Part shown: piece by piece, positions 25,161 through 49,467 of the stretch
How the letters are laid out: each line of letters begins with the position of its first letter
Position numbering within the stretch: the first letter of the stretch is position 1
Source: Syntrophotalea acetylenivorans
Lineage (GTDB): Bacteria; Desulfobacterota; Desulfuromonadia; Desulfuromonadales; Syntrophotaleaceae
Assembly: GCF_001887775.1 (NCBI RefSeq)
Contig: NZ_CP015519.1
Coordinates: forward strand, 1,922,001 to 1,986,000
Length of the DNA: 64,000 nt
Direction: 5' to 3'
Notes under the pieces: generated by a model
The model's input: the letters and a program-made list of their open reading frames with translations, nothing else
Told to the model about the DNA's origin: nothing
Database searches by the model: none
Program-made: the position numbers and the translations under genes

Positions 25161-25184
25161 AAAAAAACCGGGCCAAAAGGCCCG
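25161..25184 (-). terminator. Terminator-like hairpin in the prfC 5' leader
   Basis: On the minus strand: CGGGCC TTTT GGCCCG, then G-free T7, a canonical intrinsic terminator (stem 25184-25179 / 25174-25169, T-run 25167-25161). It stands between the candidate prfC promoter and the GTG start, 32 bases before the start codon. It may attenuate prfC or protect the mRNA 5' end. No gene lies upstream on this strand that it could terminate. Confidence 0.75.
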
Positions 25185-25195
25185 ATGAACAGTGG

Positions 25196-25225
25196 ATCAT
25201 ACCGCAAAACAAGGCAAAAGGTCAA
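25196..25225 (-). promoter_or_regulatory. Candidate sigma-70 promoter of prfC
   Basis: Minus strand TTGACC (25225-25220), 18-bp spacer, TATGAT (25201-25196). Expected transcription start is near 25189, which places the leader hairpin at the very 5' end of the mRNA. Confidence 0.65.
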
Positions 25226-25411: not shown

Positions 25412-27478
25412 ATGGTCGTAAAAATGTTTGGCGCCGACTCGGTTCAACCACAAACCCGTCTGCTCTTTTACACCCTCACGGTTCTGTGTTTGGTGTTATT
25501 GGGACTGCCAGCCAAAGCCATGACCACCCCAGCCATCAACAACCCGTCCACGGAGGCTCTGCTGAGTCTCAGCATCGAGGAACTGCTGCGCCTCGAGATC
25601 ACCTCGGCGGCTAAAAAACCACAGGCCATCAGCAATACGGCCGCCGCGATTTTCGTCATCACCCAGGAGGACATCCGCCGCTGCGGGGCCACCAGCATTC
25701 CCGAGGTGCTGCGCCTGGCGCCAGGCGTCAATGTGGCGCGTATCGACGGCAATAAATGGGCCATCACCGTCCGCGGCTTTAACGGCCGGTTCGCCAACAA
25801 GCTGTTGATCCTCATGGATGGCCGAAGCGTCTACACGCCGCTCTTCTCGGGGGTTTACTGGGACGTGCAGGACACCCTGCTGGAAGATGTCGAACGCATC
25901 GAAGTGATCCGCGGCCCGGGCGCCACCCTGTGGGGTGCCAATGCGGTCAACGGCGTGATCAACATCATCACCCGGCACGCGGAAAAGACCCACGGCCTTC
26001 TGGTCAAGGGAGGCTACGGTAGCGAGGAACGAGGATTCGGTTCCGTTCGATACGGTGGCCAGGTGGGCGCACAGGGCAACTACCGGGCCTATGTCAAATA
26101 CTTTAACCGGGATGGTCTCGATGCCATCGGCGGCGGCGAGGCGGCCGATGACTGGAGCGCTTTTCGCGGCGGTTTCCGCTACGACGGCAAACTAAGCTCC
26201 AGGGACACCCTGACCGTTCAGGGCGACGCCTACAGCGGATTCGAAGGGCAGACCAACGAAGAATACAGCCTGCTTCCGCCCGAATTTCGCACCGTATCCG
26301 ATACCGACACCGATTTTTCAGGCGGCAATCTGCTGCTGCGCTGGCAACGGTCCCTTTCCGCTGAATCCAACCTGGCACTGCAGGCCTATTACGATCACAC
26401 CCGGCGGGATGAAACAGCCCTACTGAAAGAAACCCGCGACACGCTGGATATCGACTTCCAGCACCGATTCCCCCTTGGGCGACGCCAGGAGGTCATCTGG
26501 GGCCTGGGCTACCGGGTCAATTGGGACGACATCGATCCGAACGAGCCGTTAATCATCTTTAACGATAACGACGAGACGGATCACATGCTCAGCCTCTTCA
26601 TCCAGGACGAGATTGCCCTGAAAAACGATTTGTTGAGACTGATTCTCGGCACCAAGCTCGAACACAACGACTACACCGGTTTCGAACTGCAACCCAATGC
26701 CCGCCTGATCTGGACCCCCAATAAAAACCACTCCGCCTGGGCCTCCGTGTCCAGGGCGGTGCGTACCCCATCCCGGGTCGAGGAAGACGGCAGGATGTGG
26801 CTCTACTTGATGCCGTCAACACCGCCCGGGGTCATCGTCGCCTACGGCAACCGCGATTACGACAGCGAAGAGTTGCTGGCCTGGGAACTCGGTTACCGGG
26901 TCATGCCGACCTCGGTGTTTTCCCTGGACCTGGCTTTGTTCCTCAACATCTACGACAATCTGCGCTCTTTCGAGGCCCTGGCTCCTGACTTCTCCACGCT
27001 GCCGGAGGGCTACGTAAGAATTCCCGGAATTATTGACAACAAGCTAAAGGCTAAAACCTGGGGCTTCGAGGTGGCCAGCGACTGGCAGGTAGCCGATTTC
27101 TGGCGGCTTCAAGCGAGCTACAGCTATCTGCAGATGGATGTCGACACCGGCAGGGGCAGCCACGATACGGACAGCATCGACCTGATGGAGGGGACCAGTC
27201 CCAAACACCAGCTTTCCCTGCGCTCGTCGCTGGACCTGCCGCGCCAGGTCGAATTCGATCTCTGGCTGCGCTGCGCGGACGAGCTCGAATCCCTGGACAT
27301 CAGCGGCTACCTAACCCTGGACCTACGCCTCGGCTGGCAGCCTTGTCCAGGCCTTGAGTTGGCCCTGGTCGGTCAAAATCTGCTGCAAGATAGCCACCAG
27401 GAATACGACCCGGAGTTCCAAACTCCGGCCTCAGAAGTGCCTCGCGGTATTTACGGCCACGCGGTCTGGCGCTATTAA
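25412..27478 (+). CDS. TonB-dependent outer-membrane receptor
   Basis: 688 aa from ATG 25412, chosen because it gives a clean signal peptide (FYTLTVLCLVLLGLPAKA); the RBS is weak. Plug domain ~55-165: LSIEELLRLEITSAAKKPQ, ISNTAAAIFVITQEDIRRCG, LILMDGRSVYTPLFSGVYWD, IEVIRGPGATLWGANAVNGVINIITR. The rest is a 22-strand-type barrel with FIQDEIALKNDLLRLILGTKLEHNDY, ending GIYGHAVWRY (terminal Tyr). Substrate cannot be read from the sequence; the plug resembles vitamin/siderophore-type receptors, but barrel loops are not diagnostic. It leads an operon with a YfiR homologue (41 bp downstream) and a GGDEF-EAL protein, suggesting a sensory role tied to c-di-GMP rather than only uptake. Confidence 0.9.
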   Translation: MVVKMFGADSVQPQTRLLFYTLTVLCLVLLGLPAKAMTTPAINNPSTEALLSLSIEELLRLEITSAAKKPQAISNTAAAIFVITQEDIRRCGATSIPEVLRLAPGVNVARIDGNKWAITVRGFNGRFANKLLILMDGRSVYTPLFSGVYWDVQDTLLEDVERIEVIRGPGATLWGANAVNGVINIITRHAEKTHGLLVKGGYGSEERGFGSVRYGGQVGAQGNYRAYVKYFNRDGLDAIGGGEAADDWSAFRGGFRYDGKLSSRDTLTVQGDAYSGFEGQTNEEYSLLPPEFRTVSDTDTDFSGGNLLLRWQRSLSAESNLALQAYYDHTRRDETALLKETRDTLDIDFQHRFPLGRRQEVIWGLGYRVNWDDIDPNEPLIIFNDNDETDHMLSLFIQDEIALKNDLLRLILGTKLEHNDYTGFELQPNARLIWTPNKNHSAWASVSRAVRTPSRVEEDGRMWLYLMPSTPPGVIVAYGNRDYDSEELLAWELGYRVMPTSVFSLDLALFLNIYDNLRSFEALAPDFSTLPEGYVRIPGIIDNKLKAKTWGFEVASDWQVADFWRLQASYSYLQMDVDTGRGSHDTDSIDLMEGTSPKHQLSLRSSLDLPRQVEFDLWLRCADELESLDISGYLTLDLRLGWQPCPGLELALVGQNLLQDSHQEYDPEFQTPASEVPRGIYGHAVWRY

Positions 27479-27519
27479 CCCGGGGCGAACCCATCAGGAC
27501 AAAACGTGGTACCCAATTT

Positions 27520-28098
27520 ATGAACCATTGCGTTTGGTCTAAACATATAGCGTTCTGGGCGGTTGTAGGGCTGGTTCTCCTCACCATACCGGTCACCGCT
27601 CGGGCTCAGTTTGAAAAAGAGCCGGTCATGACGGCCCTGCTGTATAATGTCGCTCGGTTTGTCACCTGGCCGGAAGGCTCCTTTGCAGATCAGGACGCCC
27701 CCCTGGTTATTGCCCTGCAGGGCGACGGTCCTCTGCAACAGGCGATCGCCAGCCTCAGCGGCAAACAGATCGAGGGCCGGACCATCATGATTCAGCGCCT
27801 GGCGTCAAATCAGCTTCCGGACCGGCATCAACCCTGCCATATCCTGTATATCCCTCAGAGCCCCTCGCAGACCCTAACAAACACCATGGAAGCGGTAGCA
27901 GGACAACCTATTCTAACTGTCAGCGATATGCAGGACTTCTCTCGCAAAGGGGGTATTCTTCACCTGGAGGGAGCCCAGAATGTCAGCTTTTCGCTTAACC
28001 TGGACAGTGCACAAAAAGCCGGTCTGGTCCTCAGTTCCAAATTGTTTCGTCTGGCCAACCTGGTCATCAAGGACGGGCAGGAAAGGGAGGGACCTTGA
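27520..28098 (+). CDS. YfiR-like periplasmic protein (DUF4154)
   Basis: 192 aa with an N-terminal signal peptide (about residues 9-29, ending ARA). The DUF4154 signature is clear: VMTALLYNVARFVTWPEGSF, QPCHILYIPQSPS, PILTVSDMQDFSRKGGILHL, and the C-terminal LVLSSKLFRLANLVIKDG. In Pseudomonas the homologue YfiR inhibits the diguanylate cyclase YfiN from the periplasm and is sequestered by the lipoprotein YfiB. Only one cysteine remains in the mature protein, so the disulfides of Pseudomonas YfiR cannot form. Its TGA overlaps the TTG start of the GGDEF-EAL gene by four bases, which implies a partnership with it. Confidence 0.92.
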   Translation: MNHCVWSKHIAFWAVVGLVLLTIPVTARAQFEKEPVMTALLYNVARFVTWPEGSFADQDAPLVIALQGDGPLQQAIASLSGKQIEGRTIMIQRLASNQLPDRHQPCHILYIPQSPSQTLTNTMEAVAGQPILTVSDMQDFSRKGGILHLEGAQNVSFSLNLDSAQKAGLVLSSKLFRLANLVIKDGQEREGP

Positions 28099-30179
28099 AC
28101 TTGCCGGCAGCGGATATCCGTAACTGGTCCATAAAAAACAAGCTCAAAGCGGTGATTGTTCTTACCAGCCTTGCGGTGCTTCTGGTGCTGTTTCTGGTCT
28201 TTGCGGTGAACCAGCGCAACTTTCTGCGCAACTCCCTGTTACAGGAGATGGATGTTCTTTCCCGCAATATCGCTAACAACTGTGCGGCATCGGTTATTTT
28301 CAACGATCGTCCCACCGCCGGAGAAACCCTCGAATCTCTGCAAGCCAACCCGCAGGTGATCGCCGGCATCATCTACGATGCGGATGGGCAGGTTTTTTCC
28401 AGCTATTACAAGCAGCAGACCAACAACTCGCCCATGCCCTATCCACCTGATTTGCTCCTTAATGCCGGACATCTTTTCTCCGGCCGTCATCTAGACATCG
28501 TGCAGGACATCGGCCACGGTCGCGAGCACCTCGGCATTCTGCACCTGCGGACGAATCTGGACAAAATCGAAACGACCCTGATGCGATATATCGGTTTCGG
28601 CTTTTTAGGCCTGGGTGGTGCGTTCATTCTCGCCTGGCTGCTTGCCGACCGGCTGCAAGGGATTATTTCAAAACCAATCGAACAGCTGGCAACCGCCATG
28701 CGCGCGGTTTCTAAAGAACGGAACTATCGACGACGGGTCAAGATGAACCGTCAAGACGAGCTCGGCAGCCTGATTGAAGATTTCAATGAAATGCTGGTGC
28801 AGATCGAGATTCGTGATCAGGAATTGCGCAGCAAACAGAACAGACTCGATTATCTGGCGCACCACGACACCCTCACCGACCTGCCGAACAGGCTTCTATT
28901 TCACGACCGTTTACACCATGCCATAACCAAGGCCCGCCGTATGCAGGCAAAACTTGCCTTATTGTTTCTCGACCTCGATCGGTTTAAAACCATCAACGAT
29001 TCCCTGGGCCATGAAGCGGGGGATCGGCTTCTGCAGGAAGTCGCCAAACGCCTGACCGGCATTATGCGTAAATCGGACACCCTGGCCCGACTCGGTGGCG
29101 ATGAATTCGTTATCGCTTTGGAGCATAATACCGAAACGCATGAAATTATCACCGTTGCTCAAAAAATTCTCGATACTCTCTCTGCTGCTTATTTCATTAA
29201 CGCTGAAGAGCTGTATATCACTGTCAGCATCGGCATCAGCCTCTTTCCAGCCAATGGCCTGACAGCTGAAACTCTTATGAAAAATGCCGATGTAGCCATG
29301 TACCGGGCCAAAGAAAAAGGCCGTAATAATTTTCAGTTTTTTACTGAAGACATGAACAAACTGGCCAAGGAGACCTTATTTCTGGAAAACAATCTGCGTA
29401 AGGCCATTGATAACCAGGAACTGGCCCTTCACTACCAGCCACAGGTGGAGATTGTCAGCGGGCAAATAATCGGCATGGAAGCTCTGGTCCGCTGGCATCA
29501 TCCAAAGCTGGGAATAATCCCGCCCAACAAATTCATTCCCATGGCCGAAGAAACCGGCTTGATTATCCCTCTCGGCAAATGGGTGATTCACACCGCGTGT
29601 CACCAAAACCTGCAATGGCAGAAGGCCGGTCTTTCTCCTGGCAAGGTTGCCGTTAATATATCTCCTCGCCAGTTTCGTCAAAGCGATTTGGTAAAAACAG
29701 TCGCGCAGGCCCTGGCTGCTTCGGGCCTGGAAGCGAAATGGTTGGAACTTGAAATCACCGAAAACGTTCTGGTCGATGACCTCACACCAACTATTGCAGT
29801 AATGGAAGATCTTAATACCATGGGGGTCAGCCTGGCCATCGACGATTTTGGCACGGGCTATTCTTCATTGAATTACCTGCACCGTTTCCCCCTTTCCAAA
29901 CTTAAAATCGATCAGTCTTTCGTGCAGAGCATAGGTGAACCGATGGGCAAGCATGCCATTGTTGAAGCCATCATTGCCCTGGCTCGTGCCCTGGACCTGG
30001 AAGTTATTGCCGAAGGGATCGAAAACCAGACTCATATTGCTTTTTTGAAAAGACACGGCTGCCGCTACGGGCAAGGGTTTTATTTCAGCAAACCCTTGCC
30101 GCAAAAAGCTTTCGAACAGTTTCTGTTGCGAGCTCAGCAGCCGCAACACACACACCCTGAAAATCCCCTTCGTAACTGA
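28095..30179 (+). CDS. CHASE8-HAMP-GGDEF-EAL membrane protein (YfiN-like c-di-GMP enzyme)
   Basis: 694 aa from TTG 28095 (RBS GGGAGGG). Order: membrane helix ~18-38 (LKAVIVLTSLAVLLVLFLVFAV), periplasmic CHASE8-type domain (LLQEMDVLSRNIANNCAASV, NPQVIAGIIYDADGQVF), second helix ~155-178, HAMP (RLQGIISKPIEQLATAM), GGDEF with intact RLGGDEF (~332-338) preceded five residues upstream by an RxxD inhibitory site (RKSD), then EAL with EALVRW (~462), NISPRQF, ELEITENVL, IDDFGTGYSSL, KIDQSF and EGIE all present. Both synthase and phosphodiesterase sites look catalytic. Pseudomonas YfiN lacks an EAL domain, so this is a bifunctional version presumably controlled by the YfiR homologue encoded just upstream. 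Confidence 0.94.
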   Translation: MNLPAADIRNWSIKNKLKAVIVLTSLAVLLVLFLVFAVNQRNFLRNSLLQEMDVLSRNIANNCAASVIFNDRPTAGETLESLQANPQVIAGIIYDADGQVFSSYYKQQTNNSPMPYPPDLLLNAGHLFSGRHLDIVQDIGHGREHLGILHLRTNLDKIETTLMRYIGFGFLGLGGAFILAWLLADRLQGIISKPIEQLATAMRAVSKERNYRRRVKMNRQDELGSLIEDFNEMLVQIEIRDQELRSKQNRLDYLAHHDTLTDLPNRLLFHDRLHHAITKARRMQAKLALLFLDLDRFKTINDSLGHEAGDRLLQEVAKRLTGIMRKSDTLARLGGDEFVIALEHNTETHEIITVAQKILDTLSAAYFINAEELYITVSIGISLFPANGLTAETLMKNADVAMYRAKEKGRNNFQFFTEDMNKLAKETLFLENNLRKAIDNQELALHYQPQVEIVSGQIIGMEALVRWHHPKLGIIPPNKFIPMAEETGLIIPLGKWVIHTACHQNLQWQKAGLSPGKVAVNISPRQFRQSDLVKTVAQALAASGLEAKWLELEITENVLVDDLTPTIAVMEDLNTMGVSLAIDDFGTGYSSLNYLHRFPLSKLKIDQSFVQSIGEPMGKHAIVEAIIALARALDLEVIAEGIENQTHIAFLKRHGCRYGQGFYFSKPLPQKAFEQFLLRAQQPQHTHPENPLRN

Positions 30180-30660
30180 TCTGCCCAAAAGCAGGCTCCA
30201 TTCCCCTTTAAAACGGTACTCAACAGCCAATCGACCGGAACAAATTCAGCTCTCGCAGGTCGTTGCGCCTAATCCAAAAACAATTAAAAAACAAAAAAAA
30301 GGTTGACAGCCACCGCCGCCACATCCTCTATGAAAATGCGACGGAAAAAATTTGTCTGCCAGTCCTCTATTCTCGCCCCGGCGTTAGCTTCTTTTTATGC
30401 AAAAAATGTTTTAACCGCCGTTAAATAGCCACAACGGGAGCGATCTGCAAAACGCCAACGATTTCTCTGCTTCAATAGTATTTTTCTTTGGTAAACAACT
30501 CCTTGATATTTTTTGGATTTGTCCAACATGCTTTTAAGTTAATCGCAACGAGGACGAAACTGGCGTGGGTATTGCGTATACACAAAGCAACAGACCGCCA
30601 CATGAATAAGATTTTGACACCTCTGTTGCCGGCAAGGTGACGCCAGAAAGGAATACCCGA
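30180..30660 (+). other. Long gene-free leader region before the barrel gene
   Basis: About 480 bp with low GC and poly-A tracts (30282-30300). A TTGACA at 30302-30307 has no well-spaced -10 box (TCTATG at 18 bp is the nearest). I see no terminator after the GGDEF-EAL gene and no recognisable riboswitch core. The sequence 30421-30660 probably carries the 5' leader of the following gene. Confidence 0.4.
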
Positions 30661-49097: not shown

Positions 49098-49195
49098 GGG
49101 AACACCCTTCTTCCATTCAGGAAAAAATCAGAATCAGGGCGTGAACAGGCAAAAAGCAGGGGCCGGGGAGAACATGGCGGGTTGCTGGCTGCCCC

Positions 49196-49342
49196 ATTCT
49201 CTTTCGTCCGGACTATAACCGTCGGCTCTGGAATCACACCAGATCTGCTGACCTCCTTTAACGACAAAAGGAGCGCTCGCGGGCTCCCCAGAGCAACCTG
49301 GGATACCGCCGGTGGGGACTCGCACCCCGCCCTGAGAATAAG
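49196..49342 (-). ncRNA. FMN riboswitch (RFN element) upstream of ribB
   Basis: Minus-strand reading contains the conserved RFN blocks in order: TCAGGGCGGGGTGCGAGTCC, CCACCGGCGGTA, GAGCCCGCGAGCG, TCTGGTGTGATTCCAGAGCC, GACGGTTATAGTCCGGACGA, AAGAG. All helices P1-P6 can be formed. The region between it and the ribB ATG (49098-49195) has a GC-rich stretch (GGCAGCCAGCAACCC, CCCCGGCCCC) that may hold the expression platform. Confidence 0.95.
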
Positions 49343-49467
49343 CGAGTGAACTGTAGAACGTCCAAGGGCCCGTTGTCAACCACCATTCTATTATTGTAAA
49401 GATGGGTGGCAGACAATAAAAAAGGCAGTCGCCTCGCAAAAGACAACTGCCCCGAAAACTCTGGTGG

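Follow-up and report, generated by a model that had tools for sequence, protein, structure and literature searches.

The window analysed here is a 64,000-nucleotide stretch of the Syntrophotalea acetylenivorans chromosome (NZ_CP015519.1, positions 1,922,001 to 1,986,000). Within it lies a three-gene operon encoding a TonB-dependent receptor, a periplasmic protein of the YfiR type and an inner-membrane protein that combines a CHASE8 sensor with a HAMP, a GGDEF and an EAL domain. The operon, first described in a sequence-only reading of the window, was found to be intact, with the open reading frames (ORFs) and coordinates as originally given. All three genes are on the plus strand, with a prfC-type gene in divergent orientation on one side and, on the other, an ORF at 30637 that resembles outer-membrane proteins. 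The features are as follows (aa, amino acids).

25412–27478, plus strand: TonB-dependent receptor of the TOL_0244 family (ATG at 25412; 688 aa; Pfam and NCBIfam NF053590)
25592–25609, plus strand: putative TonB box LEITSA, aa 61–66 (placed by eye)
25631–25957, plus strand: plug domain of the receptor (Pfam PF07715, aa 74–182)
27520–28098, plus strand: YfiR-like periplasmic protein (192 aa; signal peptide; DUF4154 at aa 37–179)
28080–28098, plus strand: Shine-Dalgarno-like GGAAAGGGAGG (28080–28091) and TTGA stop/start overlap between the YfiR and CHASE8 genes (from the sequence; overlap kept in locus L139)
28095–30179, plus strand: inner-membrane CHASE8-HAMP-GGDEF-EAL protein (694 aa; TTG start; Pfam and intact signature motifs)
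28224–28547, plus strand: CHASE8 periplasmic sensor domain (PF17152, aa 44–151)
28284–28301, plus strand: AASVIF, counterpart of the YfiN AAVVF motif proposed for YfiR binding (alignment with Escherichia coli DgcN, EAAVVF)
29094–29108, plus strand: GGDEF active-site motif with the I-site RKSD ahead of it (motif inspection)
29388–30095, plus strand: EAL phosphodiesterase domain with its signature motifs (PF00563, aa 432–667)

The operon and its products

The Shine-Dalgarno-like GGAAAGGGAGG, rated strong, precedes the TTG start of the CHASE8 gene, which sits within the YfiR stop (TTGA). An orthologous operon in another Desulfuromonadales metagenome-assembled genome (MAG; L139) keeps all three genes and the overlap. 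Identities between the two operons are 78, 59 and 73% for the receptor, YfiR and the CHASE8 protein, and the corresponding ratios of non-synonymous to synonymous substitution rates (dN/dS) are about 0.15, 0.21 and 0.11, with dS near saturation. Together with the retained overlap, these values indicate genuine genes on which purifying selection acts. A promoter scan gave nothing above chance, and no known RNA element or riboswitch that might hint at a ligand was found upstream of the receptor, either in this operon or in its paralogue in the same genome.

The receptor has a signal peptide, a plug domain (E = 1.5e-21) and a TonB-receptor barrel (E = 2.5e-33), and it passes the NCBIfam model for the TOL_0244 family of TonB-dependent receptors (NF053590; 716.7 bits against a cut-off of 645). 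Pfam gives the plug and barrel alone, with the plug beginning at aa 74, and no STN signalling domain was found at the N-terminus. The motif around the putative TonB box is conserved among receptor relatives in the alignment and occupies what we take to be the same place relative to the plug as the TonB box of BtuB. The genome encodes three TonB_C proteins. The closest solved receptors, CirA and BtuB, match over the plug region only, so these matches do not define a ligand class.

The YfiR-like protein matches DUF4154 (PF13689, YfiR/HmsC-like) at E = 3.7e-34 and, in a phmmer search, the Pseudomonas aeruginosa YfiR chains at E = 1e-7. Its best NCBIfam match, NF053591 (TOL_0243 YfiR-like), scores 103.1 bits, below the cut-off of 125. 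For the AlphaFold2 model (predicted local distance difference test score, 94), YfiR structures are the best structural matches, at Z = 19; the next relatives are lobes of solute-binding proteins at Z = 11–13, including an L-tryptophan binder at Z = 13.3. The protein lacks the C145–C152 disulphide of P. aeruginosa YfiR and, in its mature form, contains a single cysteine.

In the third protein, Pfam detects CHASE8 (6e-16), HAMP (2e-10), GGDEF (1.6e-53) and EAL (1.6e-76) domains. Its CHASE8 region scores 175.9 bits against NF053592, a model of sensor histidine kinases associated with YfiR-like proteins, which is below the cut-off of 194. The I-site RKSD and the GGDEF motif are both present at aa 325–338, as are all EAL signature motifs (EALVRW, VNIS, EITE, DDFGTG, LKID, AEGIE and QGF). 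The sequence-only reading had called both catalytic domains intact, and the motifs bear this out, which makes both cyclase and phosphodiesterase activities possible; motif integrity does not, however, reveal which activity dominates. That the enzyme acts mainly as a phosphodiesterase, with a regulatory GGDEF domain, seems to us a possibility just short of evenly balanced. The NCBIfam list is headed by phosphodiesterase profiles (DibA, 532 bits; PRK10060, 468 bits), none of which reaches its cut-off, and the nearest PDB chains are GGDEF-EAL proteins (5m3c, and 4rnh, a 'motility regulator'), whereas the intactness of the GGDEF, I-site and EAL motifs speaks against it. This question concerns the output only and is compatible with every coupling model considered below.

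A conserved receptor–YfiR unit with exchangeable outputs

To place the operon in a wider context, we collected DUF4154 matches from 297 genomes across the phylum of the window and from 229 genomes across the class of Methylobacter marinus, and annotated the surrounding loci with profile hidden Markov models (HMMs) built for this analysis. Adjacency was counted at loci with at least 1.2 kb of upstream sequence. A TonB receptor adjoins YfiR at 55 of the 62 loci in the phylum sample, directly upstream and on the same strand at 52, and at 32 of 51 in the Methylobacter class sample, far above chance. An independent collection of 80 loci was assembled from the receptor alone. YfiR lies next to the receptor in 58 of them and farther away within the locus in seven more; the 80 are the best-scoring matches and therefore not a random sample of the receptor family. 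The loci with YfiR span ten named phyla (Thermodesulfobacteriota, Deferribacterota, Verrucomicrobiota, Omnitrophota, Planctomycetota, Pseudomonadota, Acidobacteriota, Myxococcota, Nitrospirota and Nitrospinota), with phylum names taken from record titles and many of the genomes being MAGs. The same gene order surrounds very divergent DUF4154 proteins (L137, L138). The position of the receptor relative to YfiR varies across loci (upstream, downstream or divergent), and L181, L224 and L244 carry tandem copies of the receptor–YfiR pair. In two of these loci, L181 and L224, the copies precede one CHASE8 kinase, as if two inputs led to one output.

The genome of S. acetylenivorans (3.22 Mb, one contig) encodes two DUF4154 proteins and three CHASE8 proteins. 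The second set forms a paralogous operon on the minus strand in the order receptor, YfiR, CHASE8-GGDEF-EAL, receptor (L003, 12962 down to 5861; C1, approximately 1100860–1107960), so that two receptors flank one YfiR/CHASE8 pair. Three of the seven TonB-receptor barrels in the genome belong to the two YfiR operons. The remaining CHASE8 protein (L016, 8246–10756) is a hybrid histidine kinase with no DUF4154 gene near it.

The co-occurrence of receptor, DUF4154 and CHASE8 genes, which the sequence-only reading had put forward for examination, thus proved to be a strongly conserved genomic unit. It is not a lone rewiring or a peculiarity of one genome: the arrangement is common, is already curated (NF053590, NF053591 and NF053592) and usually has a histidine kinase as its output. 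The NCBIfam curators evidently noticed this neighbourhood, since each of its three components (receptor, YfiR-like protein and kinase) has a model there.

The usual output beside the receptor–YfiR pair is a histidine kinase, and GGDEF-EAL is a minority form. In the phylum sample, CHASE8 is joined to a kinase at 43 loci and to GGDEF-EAL at three (the window, its paralogue and L103); the corresponding numbers in the Methylobacter class sample are 24 and eight, with one kinase-GGDEF-EAL fusion. A separate GGDEF-EAL gene often lies 3' of the kinase (for example, in L143, L159, L183, L204 and L250), and by this association cyclic di-GMP (c-di-GMP) may be a common endpoint of receptor–YfiR loci.

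In a tree of 109 YfiR-linked receptors, the distribution of GGDEF-EAL requires four changes, three of them forced by well-supported branches, and the window, L139 and the paralogue form one clade. On the receptor phylogeny, the GGDEF-EAL output evolved next to this receptor family on three or more occasions. A single origin was rejected: placing the eight receptors in one clade gave p = 2e-10 in the approximately unbiased test with 40 receptors, a rejection to which the very distant receptor L222 contributes. The resolution of the YfiR tree is too weak for counting swaps.

Further domain combinations were observed among these loci. Single ORFs of about 1600–1700 aa that carry CHASE8, histidine kinase, GGDEF and EAL stand by the receptor and YfiR in L166, L190, L194, L205, L255, L272 and L277, and classical CHASE8-GGDEF proteins that lack EAL stand beside YfiR and a TonB receptor in L261 and L266. 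In L136 (5699–8338) and L269 (5412–8132), a single ORF combines DUF4154 with a membrane histidine kinase, and a TonB receptor and a second kinase are encoded divergently alongside.

The proposed signal path and its alternatives

The operon is probably a trans-envelope sensory unit in which a signal passes from the receptor through YfiR and CHASE8 to c-di-GMP turnover. The receptor would handle an extracellular ligand, and its state, or the imported ligand, would be reported by periplasmic YfiR. YfiR would dock on the side of CHASE8 that carries AASVIF, and HAMP would relay the change to the GGDEF-EAL module, altering c-di-GMP turnover. We infer the direction of the signal, the sign of the enzymatic output and the mode of receptor–YfiR coupling (direct or via the ligand), the coupling being drawn from genome context.

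In YfiBNR/HmsCDE, YfiR binds the periplasmic domain of the enzyme and thereby represses it; for the operon studied here, the comparison covered the contact residues. For the step from YfiR to CHASE8, a hydrophobic C-terminal YfiR surface around F162 has been proposed to bind the YfiN AAVVF motif (Malone et al., PMC3375315). F157 of the window protein corresponds to F162, and phenylalanine is found at this position in 121 of 158 receptor-linked YfiR copies; the phenylalanine of the AASVIF motif is kept in 154 of 157 YfiR-linked CHASE8 domains. Other named YfiR residues are changed in the window protein (E163 to S158, I169 to A164). The conservation of the unit, the duplication of the receptor and YfiR as a pair and the retention of most YfiR–YfiN contact residues make the route from receptor to YfiR to CHASE8, suggested in the sequence-only reading, the natural interpretation of the operon.

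Pairwise distances of YfiR and CHASE8 correlate more strongly (Pearson 0.73; about 0.44–0.47 without divergent receptors) than those of the receptor and YfiR. These correlations, the solute-binding-protein-like fold of YfiR, the L-tryptophan and vitamin B6 binding of P. aeruginosa YfiR and the kinase fusions favour a path in which the receptor acts, possibly through its ligand, on YfiR, which in turn acts on CHASE8. The predicted fold is in line with the weak binding of L-tryptophan and vitamin B6 by P. aeruginosa YfiR (PMC4887326), and the fusion of DUF4154 to kinases suggests that free shuttling of YfiR is not always required. Between delivery of a ligand to YfiR and direct capture of YfiR by the receptor, we slightly favour delivery.

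Several observations weigh against a signalling role for the receptor. It has no STN domain, a feature of known signalling receptors. The correlation between receptor and YfiR distances is modest (0.32–0.42) and falls to 0.03–0.25 when CHASE8 is partialled out, so that direct receptor–YfiR contact is not demanded by the sequence data; shared operon history alone could produce such distance correlations. In the gammaproteobacterial sample, about 37% of the YfiR loci stand without a receptor beside them. Several of these are YfiR-CHASE8-GGDEF-EAL pairs, and such pairs occur in L262, L264, L267 and L268, so this module can evidently work without a receptor.

The main rival of ligand delivery is direct capture, in which the periplasmic face or N-terminus of the loaded or energised receptor would bind YfiR, as activated YfiB does in P. 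aeruginosa, and free the CHASE8 protein. It gains from the overlap of the YfiR surfaces used by YfiB and YfiN, from the paired duplication and from the absence of YfiB. The OmpA-domain HMM, which detects E. coli YfiB at E = 2.5e-31, found no OmpA/YfiB-type gene adjoining YfiR among about 200 loci, and OmpA ORFs totalled just four. As the sequence-only reading had stated, there is no YfiB-like lipoprotein by the operon: the window contains no OmpA/YfiB-like ORF, and YfiR has no YfiB-type companion gene in this genome, where the protein that matches E. coli YfiB best is a YiaD-like glycine-zipper lipoprotein, distant and encoded far away. The receptor in front of yfiR does not, however, occupy the place of YfiB, as had been suggested, because the E. 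coli order is yfiR-dgcN-yfiB. Given the weak receptor–YfiR co-variation once CHASE8 is accounted for, the YfiR–kinase fusions of some relatives and the lack of any visible receptor extension dedicated to YfiR, we regard direct capture as unlikely.

Mere co-regulation, whereby an uptake receptor would share its transcript with an independent YfiR-CHASE8 sensor of, for example, periplasmic redox or envelope state, is in keeping with the receptor-less pairs and with the redox responses reported for P. aeruginosa YfiR and Yersinia HmsC, but we consider it more improbable still, as conservation across some ten phyla, variable receptor placement and paired duplication exceed what it predicts and the window YfiR, with its single cysteine, lacks the C145–C152 disulphide.

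Relation to known systems and neighbouring features

The operon shares with YfiBNR/HmsCDE (P. aeruginosa; E. coli YfiR-DgcN-YfiB; Y. pestis) the YfiR fold (Z = 19), the CHASE8-HAMP-GGDEF architecture, an AAVVF-like motif and the location of yfiR immediately 5' of the inner-membrane gene. It differs in the absence of YfiB and of the C145–C152 disulphide and in the presence of a TonB receptor gene and an additional EAL domain; in this comparison, complete YfiBNR is represented by E. coli and by the systems of Malone et al. 2012. YfiB-less YfiNR systems with GGDEF-EAL, histidine phosphotransfer (HPT) or kinase outputs were published in 2012 and called modular (Malone et al., PMC3375315), and YfiR together with a YfiN carrying a GGDEF-EAL or kinase output is common to these systems and ours. 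The main text of that paper is without TonB receptors, and the present survey adds a likely outer-membrane input. With the NF053590/NF053591/NF053592 set, the operon has in common the receptor family, the kind of YfiR-like protein and the CHASE8-HAMP N-terminus, whereas its YfiR and CHASE8 region fall under the cut-offs and its output is GGDEF-EAL instead of a histidine kinase.

In the FecA-FecR-FecI system, the partner of the TonB receptor is an anti-sigma factor. A TonB receptor thought to signal inward is common to both systems; here, no STN domain was found and the partner is YfiR with CHASE8.

In the open literature, with subscription papers and preprints outside the scope, we found no link between YfiR and TonB receptors. 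The broad receptor–YfiR pattern, apparently unstudied, points to a widespread envelope-crossing route of receptor signalling. We tentatively propose that TOL_0244-type receptors in general are the outer-membrane inputs of YfiB-less YfiR systems, in which YfiR, one solute-binding-protein lobe in shape, would read receptor activity or imported ligand and pass it to interchangeable CHASE8 outputs (kinase, kinase-GGDEF-EAL or GGDEF-EAL), distinct from FecA-FecR-sigma signalling. If the receptor is indeed the input, this would bear on what feeds YfiR where YfiB is missing, a question since 2012; in many environmental bacteria, the uptake of nutrients or chelates would then directly govern signalling by kinases or c-di-GMP, a mode of TonB-receptor signalling absent from the literature searched. 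In the CHASE8-GGDEF-EAL version, the output, c-di-GMP, is directly measurable.

Two features of the window lie outside the operon. A flavin mononucleotide (FMN) riboswitch is located at 49192–49343 on the minus strand (110.6 bits). At 25167–25225, also on the minus strand, a promoter-like TTGACC-18-TATGAT is followed, within about 10 nt, by a G+C-rich hairpin and a T-run in the leader of the divergent prfC-type gene, and the hairpin and T-run could be an attenuator-like element.

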